Shown: positions 19,785-30,577 of the stretch, in pieces
How the letters are laid out: each line of letters opens with the position of its first letter
How positions within the stretch are numbered: the first letter of the stretch is position 1
Source: Variovorax paradoxus
GTDB lineage: Bacteria > Pseudomonadota > Gammaproteobacteria > Burkholderiales > Burkholderiaceae_C
Direction of reading: 5' to 3'
Assembly (NCBI RefSeq): GCF_030815855.1
Contig: NZ_JAUSXG010000001.1
Span: forward strand, 682,001-746,000
DNA length: 64,000 nucleotides
The notes under the pieces: model-generated
The model's input: only the letters and a program-made list of their open reading frames with translations
What the model was told of the DNA's origin: nothing
Database searches by the model: none
Program-made: the position numbers and the translations under genes

Positions 19785-20318
19785 TCATTTCCATGCACCG
19801 TCGTGCGCGGCACTCGCTTCATCGAGCAGCGCCGGCCCGATGCATTCGATCGGATGCGGCGACGCACGGAACACGTCGCGGCACGACAGTTCCGCATCGC
19901 GCTGCTCCTGCCGCTCGCCGCGGAACACGCGCAGCCGTTCGGCGTCGATGCCGAACACCACGCGGCCGATGTTCGACCAGAAGATGGCGCCCGCGCACAT
20001 CACGCAGGGCTCGCCCGATGCATAGAGCGTGGCGCCCGCGAGCTCTTCGCGCGTGAGGCCGCGCCCCGCTAGCGCGCGCAGGGCATTCACCTCCGCATGC
20101 GCGGTGCAGTCGCCGGTCTCGGCGTTGCTGTTGGCGGCTTCGGCCAGCACTTCGCCGGCGGCGGAGACGATGACCGAGCCGAAGGGCCGGTTGCCGCGCC
20201 GGCGCGCCGCATGCGACCAGACGATGGCCTTGCGCAGGTAGCGCTCGTCGCGCTCGTCGAGCGCGGTTTCTTCAGGGATAACGGTGGGGCTGTTGCTGAA
20301 GTTCATGCCTTGAATCAT
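19785..20318 (-). CDS. Nucleoside/guanine deaminase of the CDA fold
   Basis: A 177-residue zinc deaminase. The zinc site is His74-Ala-Glu76 and Cys105-Val-Met-Cys108 in the PCVMC motif, as in bacterial guanine deaminase, TadA and cytosine deaminases. PFGSVIV precedes the site. Its ATG at 20318 overlaps the stop of the binding-protein gene (ATGA), implying coupled translation; ATG at 20306 is an alternative. The xanthine-riboswitch-like leader of this operon favours guanine to xanthine as the reaction, but the sequence alone cannot separate guanine from other bases or nucleosides. Confidence 0.85.
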   Translation of the reverse strand: MIQGMNFSNSPTVIPEETALDERDERYLRKAIVWSHAARRRGNRPFGSVIVSAAGEVLAEAANSNAETGDCTAHAEVNALRALAGRGLTREELAGATLYASGEPCVMCAGAIFWSNIGRVVFGIDAERLRVFRGERQEQRDAELSCRDVFRASPHPIECIGPALLDEASAAHDGAWK

Positions 20319-21340
20319 GTCTTGAGAAGAGTGCGTTCGTTGCGCGATGGCAGCATCGACGTGTTGAAGATGGCGTCGGACGATGGCTTGACCTTGAGGC
20401 CGAATACGTCGACGACCTCGTCGACCTGCTGCTCGAGCGTGAGCTTTTTGATGTCGCCCAGGCCGTGGCCGTGCGTGTCCGCGGCGCCCACATACTGCGC
20501 CGTGACGCCCCAGCGCTCGAGCTCCATCTTTTCGTCGAGCATGGGTTCGCGCTGGCGCGTGGCCGCAATGCTGGGTGACGAGCTGGCAAAGGTCTCGACA
20601 ATGGCGCGGTTCGTCGCGCGCAGAAAGGCCGCAACCAGCCTGGGGTTCTGCGCAATGAGGTTGCTGCTCGCGAGGATGGCGTTGCCATACAGGTTGACGC
20701 CGGCATCCGCATACTTGAGCACCGAGAGTTCCTCCGGCTTCATGCGTGCGAAGAGCGAAATGGCAGAGTCGTGAAAGTAGGTGGCGGCATCGACGTCGCC
20801 GCGCACCATCACGTTGTCGCGCGCGCTGAAGTCGGTGGTCTGCCACTGGAAGGCATCGCTACGCATGCCTTGCTTGCGCGCCACCATCGGCCATGCGCGG
20901 CGCGTCGATTCGACGGCTGCCGCCGCCACCTTCTTGCCTTGCAGGCTCTTGAAATCAGTCGTCACGCCGCGGTCCTTGCGGCCGATGATCACGAACGGTG
21001 CGCGGTTGTAGTACTGGTACACCGCCTGCACCATCGGAGTGCCGGGGTTCTGCGCGTTGAACTCGACCAGCGAGCTGATGTCGCCCAAGCCCATTTGATA
21101 GACGCCGCTTGCAATGCGCGTGATCGAGGCGACCGACCCCGCGCCGGTGTCGAGGGCCACGTCCAGGCCTTCATCCTTGTAGTAGCCCTTGCTGTGCGCG
21201 AGGAAGAACGGCGCGGTCTGCCCGTTGATGCGGAAATCGAGCGTGAACTTGAGCGGAGTCAGCTTGCCGCCGCCTTGGGCAAGAACAGCGGGAGCGGCAA
21301 GGGTGGCGGCACTGGCCGCAAGAAAGAATCGACGTTGCAT
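20315..21340 (-). CDS. NMT1/SsuA-type ABC transporter substrate-binding protein
   Basis: A 341-residue periplasmic binding protein with a Tat-like signal (MQRRFFLAASAATLAAPAVLA). The NMT1 core is present: LKFTLDFRINGQTAPFFLAHSKGYYKDEGLDVALDTGAG, then ASGVYQMGLGDISSLVEF. It heads an operon with the deaminase and ureD, and no permease or ATPase gene is adjacent. The related binding protein at 29322-30356 does have a complete ABC core, so the two may share it. The leader at 21389-21456 resembles a xanthine-sensing riboswitch, making a purine or a purine breakdown product the likely ligand. Confidence 0.88.
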   Translation of the reverse strand: MQRRFFLAASAATLAAPAVLAQGGGKLTPLKFTLDFRINGQTAPFFLAHSKGYYKDEGLDVALDTGAGSVASITRIASGVYQMGLGDISSLVEFNAQNPGTPMVQAVYQYYNRAPFVIIGRKDRGVTTDFKSLQGKKVAAAAVESTRRAWPMVARKQGMRSDAFQWQTTDFSARDNVMVRGDVDAATYFHDSAISLFARMKPEELSVLKYADAGVNLYGNAILASSNLIAQNPRLVAAFLRATNRAIVETFASSSPSIAATRQREPMLDEKMELERWGVTAQYVGAADTHGHGLGDIKKLTLEQQVDEVVDVFGLKVKPSSDAIFNTSMLPSRNERTLLKT

Positions 21341-21388
21341 GTGGGGCCTCGGATCTTTGAGTCTTGAATCCCCCGCACGAAGGCAGAG

Positions 21389-21401
21389 GCTCTTCAAGAG
21401 C
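21389..21401 (-). promoter_or_regulatory. Alternative hairpin overlapping the riboswitch-like P1 strand
   Basis: Read on the minus strand, GCTCT-TGA-AGAGC forms a five-base-pair hairpin. Its 5' arm is the same GCTCT that would close helix P1 of the adjacent riboswitch-like structure, so the two folds are mutually exclusive. Such competition is what an expression platform needs. No T tract follows, so control of translation or Rho access is more plausible than intrinsic termination. Confidence 0.45.
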
Positions 21402-21456
21402 AATTTCCGGGCGGGCGCACACAGGTGGTGCGTGCGCTGCTGAACGCTTCTACTCT
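21396..21456 (-). ncRNA. Putative xanthine (NMT1-motif) riboswitch, leader of the binding-protein operon
   Basis: On the minus strand the leader reads AGAGTAGAAGCGTTCAGC (21456-21439), then a variable 30-base segment, then GGAAATTGCTCTT (21408-21396). AGAG and CTCT can close helix P1; GCGCACGCA and TGTGTGCGC inside the variable part can form a nine-pair hairpin around CCACC, counting one G-U pair. The same two conserved blocks recur in the Rieske gene leader. This layout and the sequences UAGAAGCGUUCAGC and GAAAUUG fit my recollection of the xanthine/uric-acid riboswitch class found before NMT1-type genes in proteobacteria. It lies 55 bases upstream of the start codon. No covariance search was run. 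Confidence 0.75.
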
Positions 21457-21519
21457 TGCGGGAGTTCATGCATGAGCCATGCCACAATTCGGGCGCGCAA
21501 TTTGCATGACAAGTGGCGC
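21457..21519. promoter_or_regulatory. Shared divergent promoter segment between two riboswitch-like leaders
   Basis: If both leaders are transcribed, the start sites of the two divergent operons must lie within or at the edges of these 63 bases. The segment contains a perfect 10-base palindrome TCATGCATGA at 21466-21475. I could not identify convincing -35/-10 pairs. Confidence 0.55.
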
Positions 21520-21560
21520 AGAGTAGAAGCGTTCAGCCCTTGCGGCAGGAAATTGCTCTT
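21520..21560 (+). ncRNA. Putative xanthine (NMT1-motif) riboswitch, leader of the Rieske oxygenase gene
   Basis: The leader reads AGAGTAGAAGCGTTCAGC (21520-21537), a ten-base segment CCTTGCGGCA, then GGAAATTGCTCTT (21548-21560). The 18-base and 13-base blocks are identical to those in the divergent leader, while the segment between them differs in length and sequence, as expected for a variable hairpin between conserved internal-loop strands. AGAG/CTCT forms helix P1. The gene start is 46 bases downstream, preceded by AGAAGGAG. The identification rests on architecture, context and remembered consensus. Confidence 0.75.
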
Positions 21561-21605
21561 TCAGGTTCGTTCGTACCCACGCGCAACAACAGAAGGAGTC
21601 CACGC

Positions 21606-22685
21606 ATGCTCGTTACCCGACAACCCGTCTTCCGCAAGTTCTGGCATGCCGTCATGCCGCTCACCGAACTGGCCCATGGCCCCAAGCCCTTTACGCTGCT
21701 GGGCGAAGACATCGTTCTGTTCATCGATGCCGACGGCCAGCCAGCCGCACTGCGCGACCGCTGCTGCCACCGCACCGCGAAACTTTCGAAGGGCTGGTGC
21801 GTCGACGGCGAAGGAAAGGCCTGCGGGCAGGGCGCCCTCCAGTGCGGCTACCACGGCTGGACCTATGACCGCAGCGGGCAGGTGATCCGCATTCCCCAGT
21901 ACGAGTCTGGCCGCGAGATATCGCCGGAATACAAGACCACCGCCTACCGTTGCACCGCGCGCTACGGCTACGCCTGGGTGGCGCTGGAAGAGCCCATTGC
22001 CGAGATCCCGGCGATTCCGGAGTTCACCGACCCGGGCTACCGCACCATCTTCCAGTTCTATGAAGAGTGGCAGACCAGCCCGATGCGCGCGCTCGAGAAC
22101 TCGTTCGACAACTCGCATTTCAGCTTCGTGCACCGTGCCACTTTCGGCGTGGCCGCAAGCCCGAAACCGAGCAAGTACGAGTTGGTGGAAAACGAAAGCG
22201 GCTTCTATGCCGAGACGGTGATCGAAGCGACCAACCCGGTCAAGTTTCACGCGATCAGCGGCGTGACCGACCCGATCACCACGCGCCACATGCGCAACGC
22301 CTACTTCCTGCCGTTCTCGCGCCGGCTCGACATCGAGTATCCGAGCGGCGTACGCCACATCATCATCAACTGCTTCACACCCATCGACGACGGCCGCATG
22401 CAGCTGTGCCAATGGCTGTTCCGCAACGACACCGAGGCCGATTGCACGGCGCAGATGCTGATCGACTTCGACGAGGCGGTCACGCGCGAGGACAAGGACA
22501 TTCTCGAATCGACCGACCCCGATGCGCTGGTCGACACGCGCCGGCGCGGCGTCGAGTATTCGATGGAATCGGACCGGCCCGGCATGCTGATTCGCAAGCA
22601 CCTGATGCAGTTGCTTGCGAAACATGGCGAGGTGGAAATCCACCGCGGCACGCGCACGGTCATTCCCGTCGCAACGGCCGCCTGA
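21606..22685 (+). CDS. Rieske non-heme iron aromatic ring-hydroxylating oxygenase, alpha subunit
   Basis: A 359-residue oxygenase. The Rieske [2Fe-2S] ligands are Cys53-x-His55 and Cys80-x-x-His83 (CGYHGW). The mononuclear iron site is Asp172-x-x-His175-x4-His180 in ENSFDNSHFSFVH. It looks like the single-component-terminal type (PAO/VanA/KshA-like), and no beta subunit or reductase gene is adjacent, so electrons must come from a partner elsewhere. Its leader carries the riboswitch-like element shared with the divergent binding-protein operon, which suggests a role in purine oxidation or in oxidation of a related heterocycle. That role is inference. Strong AGAAGGAG precedes the ATG. Confidence 0.9.
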   Translation: MLVTRQPVFRKFWHAVMPLTELAHGPKPFTLLGEDIVLFIDADGQPAALRDRCCHRTAKLSKGWCVDGEGKACGQGALQCGYHGWTYDRSGQVIRIPQYESGREISPEYKTTAYRCTARYGYAWVALEEPIAEIPAIPEFTDPGYRTIFQFYEEWQTSPMRALENSFDNSHFSFVHRATFGVAASPKPSKYELVENESGFYAETVIEATNPVKFHAISGVTDPITTRHMRNAYFLPFSRRLDIEYPSGVRHIIINCFTPIDDGRMQLCQWLFRNDTEADCTAQMLIDFDEAVTREDKDILESTDPDALVDTRRRGVEYSMESDRPGMLIRKHLMQLLAKHGEVEIHRGTRTVIPVATAA

Positions 22686-26970: not shown

Positions 26971-27195
26971 ATGTCGTTCGCAGACAAAGACCTGCCTGTT
27001 CCTGTCGACCTTGCCAGCGCCCAGGCGCTGATCGAGGCGGTTCAGCGCGAGGCGGCTGTACAGCAGCTCGCCCTGCGTGTACCGCCGCCCGAGCCCACCA
27101 CCTGCTGCGGGCGGGGCTGCAACGGCTGCGTGTGGGAAGGCTGGTTGGCGGCAGTGGCCTACTGGCGCGACGAGGCCACGCTGCTGCTGGCCTAG
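26971..27195 (+). CDS. Oxidoreductase-like domain protein, small Cys-rich
   Basis: A 74-residue protein ending with the oxidoreductase-like domain pattern (pfam09791 type): PPPEPTTCCGRGCNGCVWEGWLAAVAYWRDE. The four Cys residues form a compact CC-x3-C-x2-C motif that could bind metal. The N-terminal half is a simple helix. It starts 43 bases behind lpxO and probably shares its transcript. Its stop codon overlaps the stop of the deaminase gene on the other strand by four bases. The biochemical role is not known. Confidence 0.82.
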   Translation: MSFADKDLPVPVDLASAQALIEAVQREAAVQQLALRVPPPEPTTCCGRGCNGCVWEGWLAAVAYWRDEATLLLA

Positions 27196-27668
27196 CGAGA
27201 TTCCCAGAAGCCGCGGTGCGTGGCGATCATTTCTTCCGCCACTTCGGGCACGGGGCCGATCACCTCGACATTCTTCTGCCCGCGCGCGAACACCTCGCGG
27301 CAGGGCAGGCTCAGCGTGGGGTTCTCGGGGTGGTCGCCCGTGAGCGCGAGCAGCGCGCTTTCTTCCGCGCCGTAGACGATGCGGCCGATGTGGGCCCAGT
27401 AGCTGGTGCCCGCGCACATCGCGCAGGGTTCGAAGGTCGTCACCAGCGTGCATTGCCACAGATAGTCGGCCGGCCAGTTCTGCGCGGCATGGCGCGCCAG
27501 CGTGGCTTCGGCGTGGTTTACCGTGTCGATGTTCCCCTGCTCGGCGAGGATGGTTTCGCCGTCGGGGGCAACCAGCACGGCGCCGAACGGATGTCGGCCC
27601 ATTGCCATCGCGCGGCGCGCCGCCTGGTCGGCGCGCCGCAGCGCACGAATGATCTGGTCGCGTGTCAT
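27192..27668 (-). CDS. Nucleoside deaminase of the CDA fold (second copy)
   Basis: A 158-residue zinc deaminase. Zinc ligands are His52-Ala-Glu54 and Cys82-Ala-Met-Cys85, with HPFGAVLV before the site. Its general plan matches the other deaminase at 19785-20318, and both sit in operons headed by NMT1-type binding proteins. The two are only modestly similar, so they may act on different purines. It is the last gene of the binding protein-ATPase-permease run, ten bases after the permease stop, pointing to import followed by deamination. Confidence 0.87.
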   Translation of the reverse strand: MTRDQIIRALRRADQAARRAMAMGRHPFGAVLVAPDGETILAEQGNIDTVNHAEATLARHAAQNWPADYLWQCTLVTTFEPCAMCAGTSYWAHIGRIVYGAEESALLALTGDHPENPTLSLPCREVFARGQKNVEVIGPVPEVAEEMIATHRGFWESR

Positions 27669-27678
27669 TGGCTCCGCA

Positions 27679-28449
27679 TCACTGGTTCTGCGAACCGCGG
27701 TGCGCCCATCCGGTCGTGTGCTTCTCGATCACGCTGAACAGCTCATACATCAGCATGGCCATGGCGCCGACCACCATCAGGCCCGCAAAGGCCAGGCCCA
27801 TCTGCATGGCCGAGCCGGCGGAAATCAGCAGGTAGCCGATGCCTTCGTTGGCGGCCGTCATCTCGCTCACCGTGGTGCCGACGAAGGCCAGCGTGATCGC
27901 CACCTTGAGCGAACCGAAGAAGTAAGGCATGGAGCGCGGCAGGCCGATCTTCATGAGCACGTCCCAGCGCTTGGCACCGAGCACCCGCAGCACGTCTTCG
28001 AGTTCTGGCTCCAGCGTGGCGAGGCCGGTCGCGATGTTGACCATGATCGGAAAGAAGCTGATCAAGAAGGCCGTGAGAATCGCCGGCCCGGCGCCGATGC
28101 CGAACCACACCACGAGGATCGGCACGAAGGCCGCCTTGGGCAGTGCGTTGAAGGCCGTCATGAGCGGATAGATCGCCGCATACGCGATGCGCGAGCTGCC
28201 GATCACGAAGCCCAGCAGCACGCCCACCACGATGGCCAGGCCGAAGCCCGCCATCGTGACCCAGAAGGTGCGCCATGCGTGGCCCGCGATGATCTCCTTG
28301 AATTCCCAGAACTGGTTCCAGATGCGCAGCGGGCTCGGAAAGATGAAGTCCGACACGCCGAAGCCCGCGCAGATCACCTGCCACAGCAGGATCACCGCGA
28401 CGAGCAGCAGCCAGGGCGACCAGCGTTCGATTTGCTTGGTGTTCTTCAT
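27679..28449 (-). CDS. ABC transporter permease (SsuC/TauC type)
   Basis: A 256-residue permease with six membrane segments and the EAA loop in the form TLEPELEDVLRVLGAKRWDVLMKIGLPRSMPYF, where the ATPase docks. The family imports sulfonates, taurine, nitrate, thiamine precursors or pyrimidine/purine-like compounds. It is flanked by its ATPase upstream and a nucleoside deaminase downstream in one operon, favouring a nucleobase-like substrate. Confidence 0.9.
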   Translation of the reverse strand: MKNTKQIERWSPWLLLVAVILLWQVICAGFGVSDFIFPSPLRIWNQFWEFKEIIAGHAWRTFWVTMAGFGLAIVVGVLLGFVIGSSRIAYAAIYPLMTAFNALPKAAFVPILVVWFGIGAGPAILTAFLISFFPIMVNIATGLATLEPELEDVLRVLGAKRWDVLMKIGLPRSMPYFFGSLKVAITLAFVGTTVSEMTAANEGIGYLLISAGSAMQMGLAFAGLMVVGAMAMLMYELFSVIEKHTTGWAHRGSQNQ

Positions 28450-28458
28450 GGCGCGCCT

Positions 28459-29322
28459 TCAGTGAGATACCGCGGCGGCCGCTGTTTGCGCCGCGCCGAT
28501 GCCCGTGTTGCGGATCGCGCCGATGTGCCCGCGCAGCTCGAGCACGATGTCGGTGAACTCCTTGGTGTAGGTGAGCTCCAGCTCGCGGGGGCGCGGCAGC
28601 TCGATCTCGCGCTTGACCACGAAGCGGCCCGGGCTCTTGCTCATCACGTACACCGTGTCGGCCAGGAACACCGATTCGCGCAGGTCGTGCGTCACCAGGA
28701 TGACGTTGAACTGCTGCTCGGTCCAGAGGTCGCGCAGGATGCACCAGAGCTCCTCGCGCGTGAAGGCGTCGAGCGCGCCGAACGGTTCGTCGAGCAGCAG
28801 CATCTTGGGCTCGTGGATCAGCGCGCGGCAGATGCTCGCGCGCTGCTGCATGCCGCCCGAGAGCTGCCACGGAAACTTGTCTTCGTAGCCCGCGAGCCCG
28901 ACCTTCTGCAGCAGCTTGCGCGCGCGCTCGACGTATTCCTTGCGCCTGGCCTTGAAGCTGGAGCGGTAGGGCTCGACGATTTCCAGCGGCAGCAGCACGT
29001 TGTCGACCGTGGTGCGCCAGGGCAGTAGCGAAGGCGCCTGAAACGCCATGCCCGAGATCTTGAGCGGCCCGGTCACGGGCTGGCCGTCGATGCGGATCTT
29101 GCCCATCGACGGCATCTTGAGGCCAGTGGCGAGCTTCATGAAGGTCGACTTGCCGCAGCCCGAAGGGCCGACGATGGCAATGAACTCGCCGCGCTTCACC
29201 TTCAGGTCGATGGCCTCGACCGCGAAGTGGTTCTCGCGCAGGAGCTCCTCGTTGTAGGCGAGCCAGACGTCCTGAAAGTCGACGAAGGGCGCAGCGTTGT
29301 CGCTCGATGCGTCCACCGCCAT
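28459..29322 (-). CDS. ABC transporter ATP-binding protein (SsuB/TauB type)
   Basis: A 287-residue ATPase with Walker A GPSGCGKST (near residues 53-61), Q-loop in FQAPSLLPWRTT, signature LSGGMQQR, Walker B MLLLDEPFGALD and the switch His in VTHD. Its ATG at 29322 overlaps the stop of the binding-protein gene (ATGA), so translation is coupled. It is the only ATPase of this type near the two NMT1 binding proteins and could energise uptake with both. Confidence 0.92.
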   Translation of the reverse strand: MAVDASSDNAAPFVDFQDVWLAYNEELLRENHFAVEAIDLKVKRGEFIAIVGPSGCGKSTFMKLATGLKMPSMGKIRIDGQPVTGPLKISGMAFQAPSLLPWRTTVDNVLLPLEIVEPYRSSFKARRKEYVERARKLLQKVGLAGYEDKFPWQLSGGMQQRASICRALIHEPKMLLLDEPFGALDAFTREELWCILRDLWTEQQFNVILVTHDLRESVFLADTVYVMSKSPGRFVVKREIELPRPRELELTYTKEFTDIVLELRGHIGAIRNTGIGAAQTAAAAVSH

Positions 29323-30356
29323 CACTTGCGCAGCACGCCGTTGAGTTCGGCCGCGGGCGGCAGCAGCGCGGCGGTCCACACGGCGTCAGGGCTCACGCGC
29401 GTCTTGGTGTTGAACGCGTCCGATACCTGCGAGGCCATCAGCGACATGCGGCCCGCGTTCACCGCGCCGAAGCCTTCGCTGCGCGCGTCGGCACTGTTGA
29501 TCGCCGTGTCGATCGCCATCTGCAGGCGACGTGTTTCGAGCTTGCTGTCGATGATGCCGTCGCGCGCCTTCACCGATTCGATGCCCACTGCCGGGTTGGC
29601 GATCACTTCCTTCGCTCCCTTTGCAAAGGCCGAGAGGAATTTCTTCACCGCTTCAGGGTTCTCCTTGATGAGCTTGGGCGAGGCGATGATCACGTTGCCG
29701 TAGAGCTTCACGCCGTAGTCGGGGTAGGGCAACACGACGATGTCGGCGGCCTTGGCGCCGCGCGCCTCCAGGTTCAGCAGCGAGGTGAAGGTGAAGCCCG
29801 TGATCGCGTCGATGTCGCCGCGGATCAGCATGGTTTCGCGCAGCGTCGGGTCCATGGCGGTCCAGTTGACTGCGCCGATGTTGTTGGCCTTGGCGAAGAT
29901 CGGGAACGCGCGGCGGCCCGCGTCGAACACCGGCGCGCCGAGCTTCTTGCCGGCCAGGTCGGCCGGCTTGGCGATGCCGCTCTTCTTGAGCGCCATGACC
30001 GAGGCCGGCGTGTTGTTGTAGACCATCATCACCGCGACCGGCTTGTTCGGGCTGTCGGGGTTGTTGGCGTGGAACTCCATCAGCGCGGCGAGATCGGCAA
30101 AGCCCATCTCGTAGGCACCCGAGGCCACGCGCGTGACCGTGCCGCCCGAGCCGTTGCCGGCATCGATGGTCACGTCCAGGCCCGCGGCCTTGAAGTAACC
30201 CTTGGCGGCCGGGTGCAGGAACAGCGCGGCCGGTCCTTCGAAGCGCCAGTCGAGCTGGAACTTGATCGGCGTCGTGGTCTGGGCAAGGGCCGAAGAAAGG
30301 CCGAAGCTGAGGGCCGAGGCGGCGAGGAAGGACTGGAGCAGTTGGCGCTTGTTCAT
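29322..30356 (-). CDS. NMT1-type ABC transporter substrate-binding protein (second copy)
   Basis: A 344-residue periplasmic binding protein with a signal peptide ending SSALA-Q. The core IKFQLDWRFEGPAALFLHPAAKGYFKAAGLDVTIDAGNGSGGTVTRVASGAYEMGFADLAALMEF aligns visibly with the binding protein at 20315-21340. It heads a complete operon: binding protein, ATPase, permease, deaminase. Unlike the first copy, its leader lacks the paired riboswitch blocks, so the two systems seem to be controlled differently. Confidence 0.9.
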   Translation of the reverse strand: MNKRQLLQSFLAASALSFGLSSALAQTTTPIKFQLDWRFEGPAALFLHPAAKGYFKAAGLDVTIDAGNGSGGTVTRVASGAYEMGFADLAALMEFHANNPDSPNKPVAVMMVYNNTPASVMALKKSGIAKPADLAGKKLGAPVFDAGRRAFPIFAKANNIGAVNWTAMDPTLRETMLIRGDIDAITGFTFTSLLNLEARGAKAADIVVLPYPDYGVKLYGNVIIASPKLIKENPEAVKKFLSAFAKGAKEVIANPAVGIESVKARDGIIDSKLETRRLQMAIDTAINSADARSEGFGAVNAGRMSLMASQVSDAFNTKTRVSPDAVWTAALLPPAAELNGVLRK

Positions 30357-30390: not shown

Positions 30391-30577
30391 AGCAAAAACG
30401 GTGCCCGCACGCGATTGGTGCGAACCCTCCCGGCGAACTGCCGCGGTGCAATTTCGAGGCCGCGATGCACCTTCGTTGTGAGTTCTGGTGAATTTCAGCC
30501 GAAAGAAGCATCGAAGCCGAACCACCATGGGGCGCCGCCGTGTCAGCTGGCGCCACCAGAGTCCGCCGCGCGCAGCC

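Follow-up and report, generated by a model that had tools for sequence, protein, structure and literature searches.

Within the window analyzed here (the whole 64 kb stretch of DNA), an intergenic gap at 21341-21605 separates two divergently transcribed units (Table 1). The left unit, on the minus strand, is an operon that begins with a gene for an NMT1/THI5-like ABC substrate-binding protein, followed after 8 bp by a gene for a CDA-fold deaminase, the start codon of which was chosen by us. The closest solved structure of this deaminase is a CMP/dCMP-type deaminase, and the next are TadA and the guanosine and guanine deaminases. The right unit consists of a single gene for a Rieske non-haem oxygenase, whose top solved matches are the methylxanthine demethylases NdmA (8.5e-30) and NdmB (1e-28), with SxtT next (9.9e-28). 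The genes on both sides of the gap are of purine type, their functions being assigned by similarity only. The same window also contains a second operon (27192-30356, minus strand) of NMT1-type, ABC transporter and deaminase genes, which has no riboswitch. Its upstream DNA (30391-30421) carries a sigma54-like sequence, GGGCACCGTTTTTGCT, which runs from 30406 on the minus strand. It also has, at 30407, a sequence resembling an NtrC site.

Table 1. Genes, aptamers and putative control elements in and around the divergent gap (window coordinates)
Feature	Position	Strand	Basis or remark
CDA-fold deaminase gene, 8 bp past the NMT1-type gene	19785..20306	-	PF00383
NMT1/THI5-like ABC substrate-binding protein gene, first of left operon	20315..21340	-	Pfam NMT1 PF09084, 1.3e-34
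Left competing hairpin, UCUUGAA (21399-21393) with UUCAAGA (21368-21362)	21362..21399	-	shares CUCU with P1
Left xanthine riboswitch aptamer, leader of NMT1-type gene	21393..21460	-	RF03054, 54.3 bits, cut-off 36
Candidate NtrC-type enhancer GCACACAGGTGGTGC in left variable hairpin (P2b)	21417..21431	.	1 mismatch to GCACC-N5-GGTGC
Left sigma54-like -24/-12 promoter TGGCATGGCTCATGCA	21469..21484	-	score 27; 14 nt ahead of GAGTA
Right sigma54-like -24/-12 promoter GGGCGCGCAATTTGCA	21491..21506	+	score 26; 15 nt ahead of GAGTA
Right xanthine riboswitch aptamer, leader of Rieske oxygenase gene	21516..21563	+	RF03054, 48.6 bits, cut-off 36
Right P1 3′ strand end CUCUUUC, able to pair with the Shine-Dalgarno sequence	21556..21562	+	43-leader alignment, RNAalifold
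Right Shine-Dalgarno sequence GAAGGAG of the Rieske gene	21592..21598	+	sequence; can pair with 21556-21562
Rieske non-haem oxygenase gene, single-gene right unit	21606..22685	+	PF00355, PF19112

Each of the two divergent leaders contains an aptamer that belongs, by sequence, to the xanthine (NMT1) riboswitch class and is predicted to bind xanthine or urate. The sequence-only reading of this DNA had proposed xanthine-type riboswitches ahead of purine-type genes, and a covariance search with the Rfam model bears this out: both copies lie above the gathering score, with E-values of 2.7e-9 and 9.8e-8 over the 64 kb window, one ahead of the NMT1-type and deaminase genes and the other ahead of the Rieske gene. 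No RF03054 copies beyond these two were found with the model in the 5.95 Mb genome. A response of the two operons to one and the same purine, as that reading proposed, would fit these assignments. The finer features described in that reading are also present, namely an 18-base block, AGAGTAGAAGCGTTCAGC, and a 13-base block, GGAAATTGCTCTT, that occur in identical form within both aptamers, an intervening variable segment that is long in the left copy, where it folds into a nine-pair hairpin, and short in the right, and flanking AGAG and CTCT segments that constitute the closing pairs of the first helix in the cmscan alignment. These blocks make up the core that is conserved throughout the riboswitch class, and so their identity does not in itself establish that either copy derives from its neighbor. 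The ligand-pocket junction nucleotides, GAGUAGAAGCGUUCAGC and GGAAAUUGCUC, are found in both copies, as in the crystallized RNA (PMC8266621; this and the other papers are cited from parts of their text), and the core equals that of the crystallized Ideonella RNA except for an A in place of C at position 34 (our own numbering) of the right copy (PMC8266621).

The mirrored arrangement had been thought uncommon, a view that a wider search overturns. RF03054 matches occur in 92 of 101 Variovorax genomes, and a divergent pair within 1 kb is found in 72 of the 88 genomes whose loci were read (G001, G012, G047 and G073 have matches and lie outside the 88). In an even sample of the phylum, the riboswitch is present in 17 of 398 genomes, 10 of which have divergent pairs, so that the arrangement extends to other families; an order sample has such pairs in 5 of 14. 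A family sample searched with a strict pattern (gaps of 30-90) yields pairs in 9 of 399 genomes, an undercount, since many gaps are longer than the pattern allows. Divergent pairs also occur in Marinobacter, Pseudomonas and Halopseudomonas, among others, in the matches listed, and opposed adjacent copies are depicted for Hydrogenophaga intermedia S1 (Fig. 5 legend of PMC7373994). Both the elements and their mirrored arrangement are therefore already known, and the arrangement is frequent. Some loci depart from the simple pair. In one Variovorax-type gap (L218, genome G033), the Rieske-side aptamer and its linker occur in tandem (1197 and 1264, 67 bp apart), giving three aptamers in the gap. 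In locus L034 (genome G454, around 1511-1597, both strands), the two opposed aptamers do not differ by a single letter over 47 nt, variable hairpin included, a likeness suggestive of gene conversion or of an inverted duplication within the genus concerned.

Upstream of each aptamer is a sigma54-like -24/-12 element, with expected transcription starts at approximately 21458 (left) and 21517 (right), in both cases among the first bases of the aptamer. The left element shows more than 90% conservation at most positions over 70 Variovorax NMT1-side leaders, and the right element, whose -24 portion (GGGCGCG) departs from the ideal TGGCACG, is kept in 79 Variovorax Rieske-side leaders. The scores in Table 1 are on our own scale, derived from the textbook sigma54 consensus; consensus sequences in print are TGGCAC-N5-7-TTGCT (PMC12316311) and GGcacg-N4-ttGC (PMC5491218). 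The gene for glnA in the same genome (TIGR00653 above cut-off) is preceded by a promoter, TGGCACAGAAACTGCA, that scores 28, with an NtrC-like sequence, TCACCAATTTGGTGC, 60 bp upstream, and two rpoN loci exceed the cut-off.

The position of these elements relative to the aptamer is highly constrained. Among 104 mainly Burkholderiales aptamers, GG-N10-GC ends 12-17 nt ahead of the core in 94, with 76 at 14-15 nt; at other offsets the number out of the same 104 averages 1.05 and never exceeds 9. The minus-strand aptamer of Variovorax locus L007 has no GG-N10-GC at that spacing. A later, alpha/gamma-type set has the motif at close spacing in 44 of 168 aptamers (from the best 80 of 119 stretches), and others have it 18-55 nt away. 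Over all sets, at least 154 of whose 369 aptamers are from Variovorax, a site scoring 26 or more lies within 70 nt of 243 of the 369, compared with 1.2 in mononucleotide shuffles, and such sites are spread over 27 of 49 named genera and 19 of 24 other genus groups. These counts (104, 168 and 369) refer to aptamers that match the core regular expression and have enough upstream DNA, with 80-nt-identical repeats taken once. The sigma54-like site is mostly absent in Rhodobacterales (1 of 22), as it is from second copies in Hyphomicrobiales loci. The motif alone is not specific, as sites scoring 29 reside inside other genes of control stretches. Taken with its position, there is a strong case for assigning sigma54 promoters to both leaders, with use by RpoN as the likely corollary.

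Several related arrangements can be noted elsewhere. A single aptamer of Acinetobacter baylyi DSM 14961 (L107), a species that is easily handled in the laboratory, is located behind a clear sigma54-like promoter, TTGGCATATTCATTGCTTA. Six rhizobia-type loci (L086, L096, L103, L109, L122 and L140) have two same-strand aptamers approximately 2.8-4.2 kb apart, the first behind a sigma54-like promoter and the second without one nearby; the second aptamer may sit inside an operon. L003-L005 and L163 (Variovorax beijingensis) contain an additional aptamer that stands alone, is of a different sequence type (the lone type) and precedes an NMT1-like gene located farther away. This aptamer is likewise behind a GG-N10-GC element, and its upstream letters in L163 are the same as those in L004 and L005.

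The variable hairpin of the left aptamer contains a palindrome that resembles the site of the nitrogen regulator NtrC, for which the consensus is GCACC-N5-GGTGC. This candidate enhancer lies some 93 bp ahead of the position where right-hand transcription is expected to begin, and the genome has one ntrC locus above the equivalog cut-off (669.7 bits joined) and one glnA site that agrees with the consensus. The core of the palindrome, GCAC-N7-GTGC, is present in 64 of 69 Variovorax NMT1-side aptamers (46 distinct) and in none of 80 Rieske-side aptamers (65 distinct). The 69 leave out L003, L004, L005 and L247, which are of the lone aptamer type, and L230, which has no palindrome and a partner not recognized as Rieske; with L230 added, the count is 64 of 70. 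Of 43 divergent pairs, 27 have an NtrC-like site with at most one mismatch, compared with 0.97 in shuffles; these pairs are mostly of one genus, and hairpins favor palindromes. The 64 kb window as a whole contains 15 such sites, which gives the background frequency. The sequence-only reading had set a structured RNA against a DNA operator at this locus. The RNA stands as described, but the contrast was too sharp, given two sigma54-like promoters and an enhancer-like left hairpin.

The distribution of NtrC-like sites beyond the aptamers is mixed. Among the nitrogen genes checked in the same genome, glnA alone has such a site at the usual distance: the 3 kb stretch that precedes the first amtB contained none with at most one mismatch, and the second amtB has one approximately 850 bp upstream. 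In the alpha/gamma-type set, among the matches listed, NtrC-like sites lie upstream in 14 of 60 leaders with the sigma54 pattern (downstream control, 0 of 60; shuffles, 1.25) and in 15 of 86 without it (control, 2 of 86; shuffles, 1.43). Because they are enriched with and without the pattern, these sites do not single out sigma54 leaders.

In the right leader, the last bases of the P1 3′ strand are able to form pairs with the downstream Shine-Dalgarno sequence of the Rieske gene, and this complementarity is conserved in the aligned sequences. Across 43 Variovorax leaders, 98.3% of cells form pairs, a percentage and score that none of 500 shuffles match. There is one double change, C-G to G-C, in three leaders, which may represent a single event, and 148 of 500 shuffles match the number of double-change pairs. 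Part of the complementarity comes free, since the CUCUU of the class resembles an anti-Shine-Dalgarno sequence; sliding the segments by +3 columns leaves 95.5% pairing among fewer remaining cells. RNAalifold picks the CUCUUUC/GAAGGAG hairpin over P1, and P1 of the right leader is invariant and hence uninformative either way. When right leaders are folded freely, the ribosome site is masked in 70 of 76 (14 of 380 with shuffled linkers). When the aptamer is enforced, the mean cost of opening the site falls from 12.0 to 6.35 kcal/mol, and opening is easier by more than 1 kcal/mol in all 76; with shuffled linkers, the median change is -0.35 kcal/mol and opening is eased in 77 of 228.

On the left, a putative hairpin competes with P1. 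In this hairpin, 92.5% of cells pair over 46 leaders, a level that 25 of 500 shuffles reach, and covariation is weak, as its double-change count is reached by 11 and its score by 71 of 500 shuffles. Enforcing the left aptamer lowers the opening cost from 10.8 to 5.6 kcal/mol, with opening more than 1 kcal/mol easier in 65 of 68 leaders and more than 1 kcal/mol harder in none (shuffled linkers: median -0.96 kcal/mol, eased in 100 of 204); mean pairing of the Shine-Dalgarno sequence alone is nearly unchanged. A different left pairing, between the core CGGA and a UCCG near the Shine-Dalgarno sequence, was rejected: 92.4% of cells pair, and covariation is absent. The folded sets (68 left, 76 right) contain no duplicates, no lone-type aptamers, and no leaders that exceed 190 nt or lack a recognized start, and the alignments A1 and A2 hold 46 of the 68 and 43 of the 76 leaders. 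All of these energies come from a model that has no tertiary contacts, kinetics or steric blocking near P1.

Overall, the modeling predicts that the ribosome site becomes free once the aptamer forms, making each leader an ON switch, most clearly at the Rieske gene. The modeled cost of forming the aptamer, 8-10 kcal/mol, is more than micromolar binding should repay at equilibrium, and thus the switch would need kinetic control. Control is likely to be translational, because a simple scan of 21300-21650 found no terminator-like site.

Other readings of these features can also be weighed. Conceivably, both units could be transcribed in the ordinary way from sigma70 promoters, with GG-N10-GC reflecting a GC-rich coincidence or shared ancestry within one genus. 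The plain motif is certainly common, with 1516 occurrences on both strands of the 64 kb window, and a conserved ACAAT/ACATAA-like sequence just before the right -24 element (window 21484-21489) is present in 60 of 79 Rieske-side leaders and in none of 70 on the NMT1 side. Against it stand the fixed spacing, the longer consensus and the recurrence across orders described above, and a simple scan detected zero sigma70-like promoters in 21300-21650; this explanation appears very improbable. The palindrome is harder to place. We put the chances that it acts as an NtrC enhancer at even or slightly lower, and it is an even bet that it is instead a feature of the RNA, or conserved by chance, with no role as a DNA enhancer. 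Any stable hairpin is an inverted repeat, and the GCACC bases, which form a loop in the folded leader of L009, are partly paired in the window hairpin. In addition, three Variovorax loci with a Rieske partner (L024, L028 and L226) keep the palindrome arms at altered spacing, and L010 and L017 retain the palindrome despite a right promoter that is approximately 600 bp away. Helical phasing of the gap lengths receives no support (32 distinct gaps; random values as high in 33%), leaving DNA looping from the hairpin site without that backing. Against a purely RNA role, each base of the NMT1-side GCACC is 90-99% conserved, compared with 39-74% for the most frequent base at each of the four positions that follow, and the P2b loop was swapped for GAAA in the RNA crystallized with xanthine, indicating that it is dispensable for binding (PMC8266621). 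The site also recurs in other genera, as a perfect match in the same hairpin (L038) or with one mismatch in the spacer (L037, L039, L043, L045 and L063). Moreover, a copy with at most one mismatch lies upstream (within 300 nt) of 4 of 13 Rieske leaders that have no partner, two of them at -109/-110; one of the 13, L025, lies at the end of a contig, where 85 nt of upstream sequence are available.

The direction of the switch is likewise a matter on which the evidence diverges, because the predicted ON sign conflicts with the OFF behavior published for the class (PMC7373994). The same RNAs and promoters could operate with both leaders OFF, such that xanthine lowers translation as a form of product feedback, and this is a serious contender, albeit at somewhat less than even chances. 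It is favored by a reporter test of the H. intermedia leader, the right-hand member of an opposed pair, in which the wild type was expressed below a binding mutant (PMC7373994). That test, however, concerns one leader in E. coli in two media, with no ligand titration in the portions of text seen (PMC7373994), and the folding results run the other way: enforcing the aptamer eases opening in every Rieske leader and nearly every NMT1 leader and hinders none, far more often than with shuffled linkers. A further 169 leaders from L033-L195, mostly of other genera (at least five are from Variovorax, at L040, L062 and L163, and start codons were picked mechanically), have opening eased in 112 and hindered in 7, compared with 71 and 9 in shuffled-linker controls.

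With these alternatives in view, the gap is best regarded as a compact, two-sided control region for purine scavenging in which sigma54 promoters are combined with xanthine riboswitches, an interpretation that we consider probable. The aptamers, the promoter motifs with their fixed spacing, and the complementarity of the right P1 3′ strand to the Shine-Dalgarno sequence are evident in the sequence itself, and from these we infer sigma54 use, activation by NtrC, a response to ligand, and translational control. Transcription would start from two sigma54 (RpoN) promoters placed back to back, with NtrC as the probable activator when nitrogen is scarce, and each transcript would begin at the first bases of an aptamer. 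Binding of xanthine, or urate, would stabilize P1 and thereby alter access to the ribosome sites of the NMT1/deaminase operon and the Rieske gene, with an ON sign that is predicted most strongly for the latter. Nitrogen shortage would thus cause both units to be transcribed, and xanthine would report the arrival of purine, so that an ON Rieske leader would allow the next enzyme to be made only when its likely substrate is present.

A more specific combination, in which the left hairpin is an NtrC enhancer for the Rieske promoter and the Rieske leader is a xanthine ON switch, seems unlikely to hold in full. If it did, one 200-bp module would be read twice, with the same bases acting as a DNA enhancer and as part of an RNA aptamer, an unusual packing of two regulatory layers. 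The free P1 3′ strand would mask the Shine-Dalgarno sequence, the reverse of the published behavior of the class, and synthesis of the Rieske product would require both nitrogen shortage and the presence of xanthine.

What appears to be new here is, with strong confidence, the sigma54 context, for which no statement in print was found: the main texts of PMC7373994 and PMC8266621, supplements apart, hold no relevant passage on a sigma54 or nitrogen link to the riboswitch, a statement that for NtrC covers PMC7373994 only. The enhancer-like palindrome within an aptamer is new with moderate confidence, and the predicted ON platform is testable, the Rieske leader providing a direct test case for ON members of the class. 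The cellular use of these switches was left open in the concluding remarks of the class paper (PMC7373994). If aptamers begin sigma54 transcripts in many genera, that use is likely to be nitrogen scavenging, with nitrogen shortage needed for transcription and a purine intermediate tuning translation; the genes for purine scavenging appear to come under the joint control of nitrogen scarcity and a product of purine degradation.

Comparisons can be made with several known systems. The elements described here share their core, secondary structure, downstream gene type and opposed copies with the published xanthine riboswitch RF03054 (PMC7373994; PMC8266621), and differ from that description in the sigma54 promoters that feed the aptamers and in the predicted ON platform of the Rieske leader, where the published behavior is OFF. 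In Burkholderia cenocepacia H111, the named common targets of sigma54 and NtrC include xanthine dehydrogenase, urease and a urate oxidase cluster, and allantoicase is listed in the NtrC table (PMC5491218). The promoter type, the presence of rpoN and ntrC, and the purine catabolic nature of the targets are shared with that scavenging system, for which transcriptional control is described (PMC5491218), whereas the present locus adds a metabolite-binding RNA at the 5′ end of the transcript. Finally, the Klebsiella hpx system (Riva 2008, via PMC7373994) resembles this locus in having a Rieske-type oxygenase linked to hypoxanthine and xanthine oxidation; any kinship of the Rieske gene here with the HpxD family would be putative, and its best solved matches are NdmA and NdmB.
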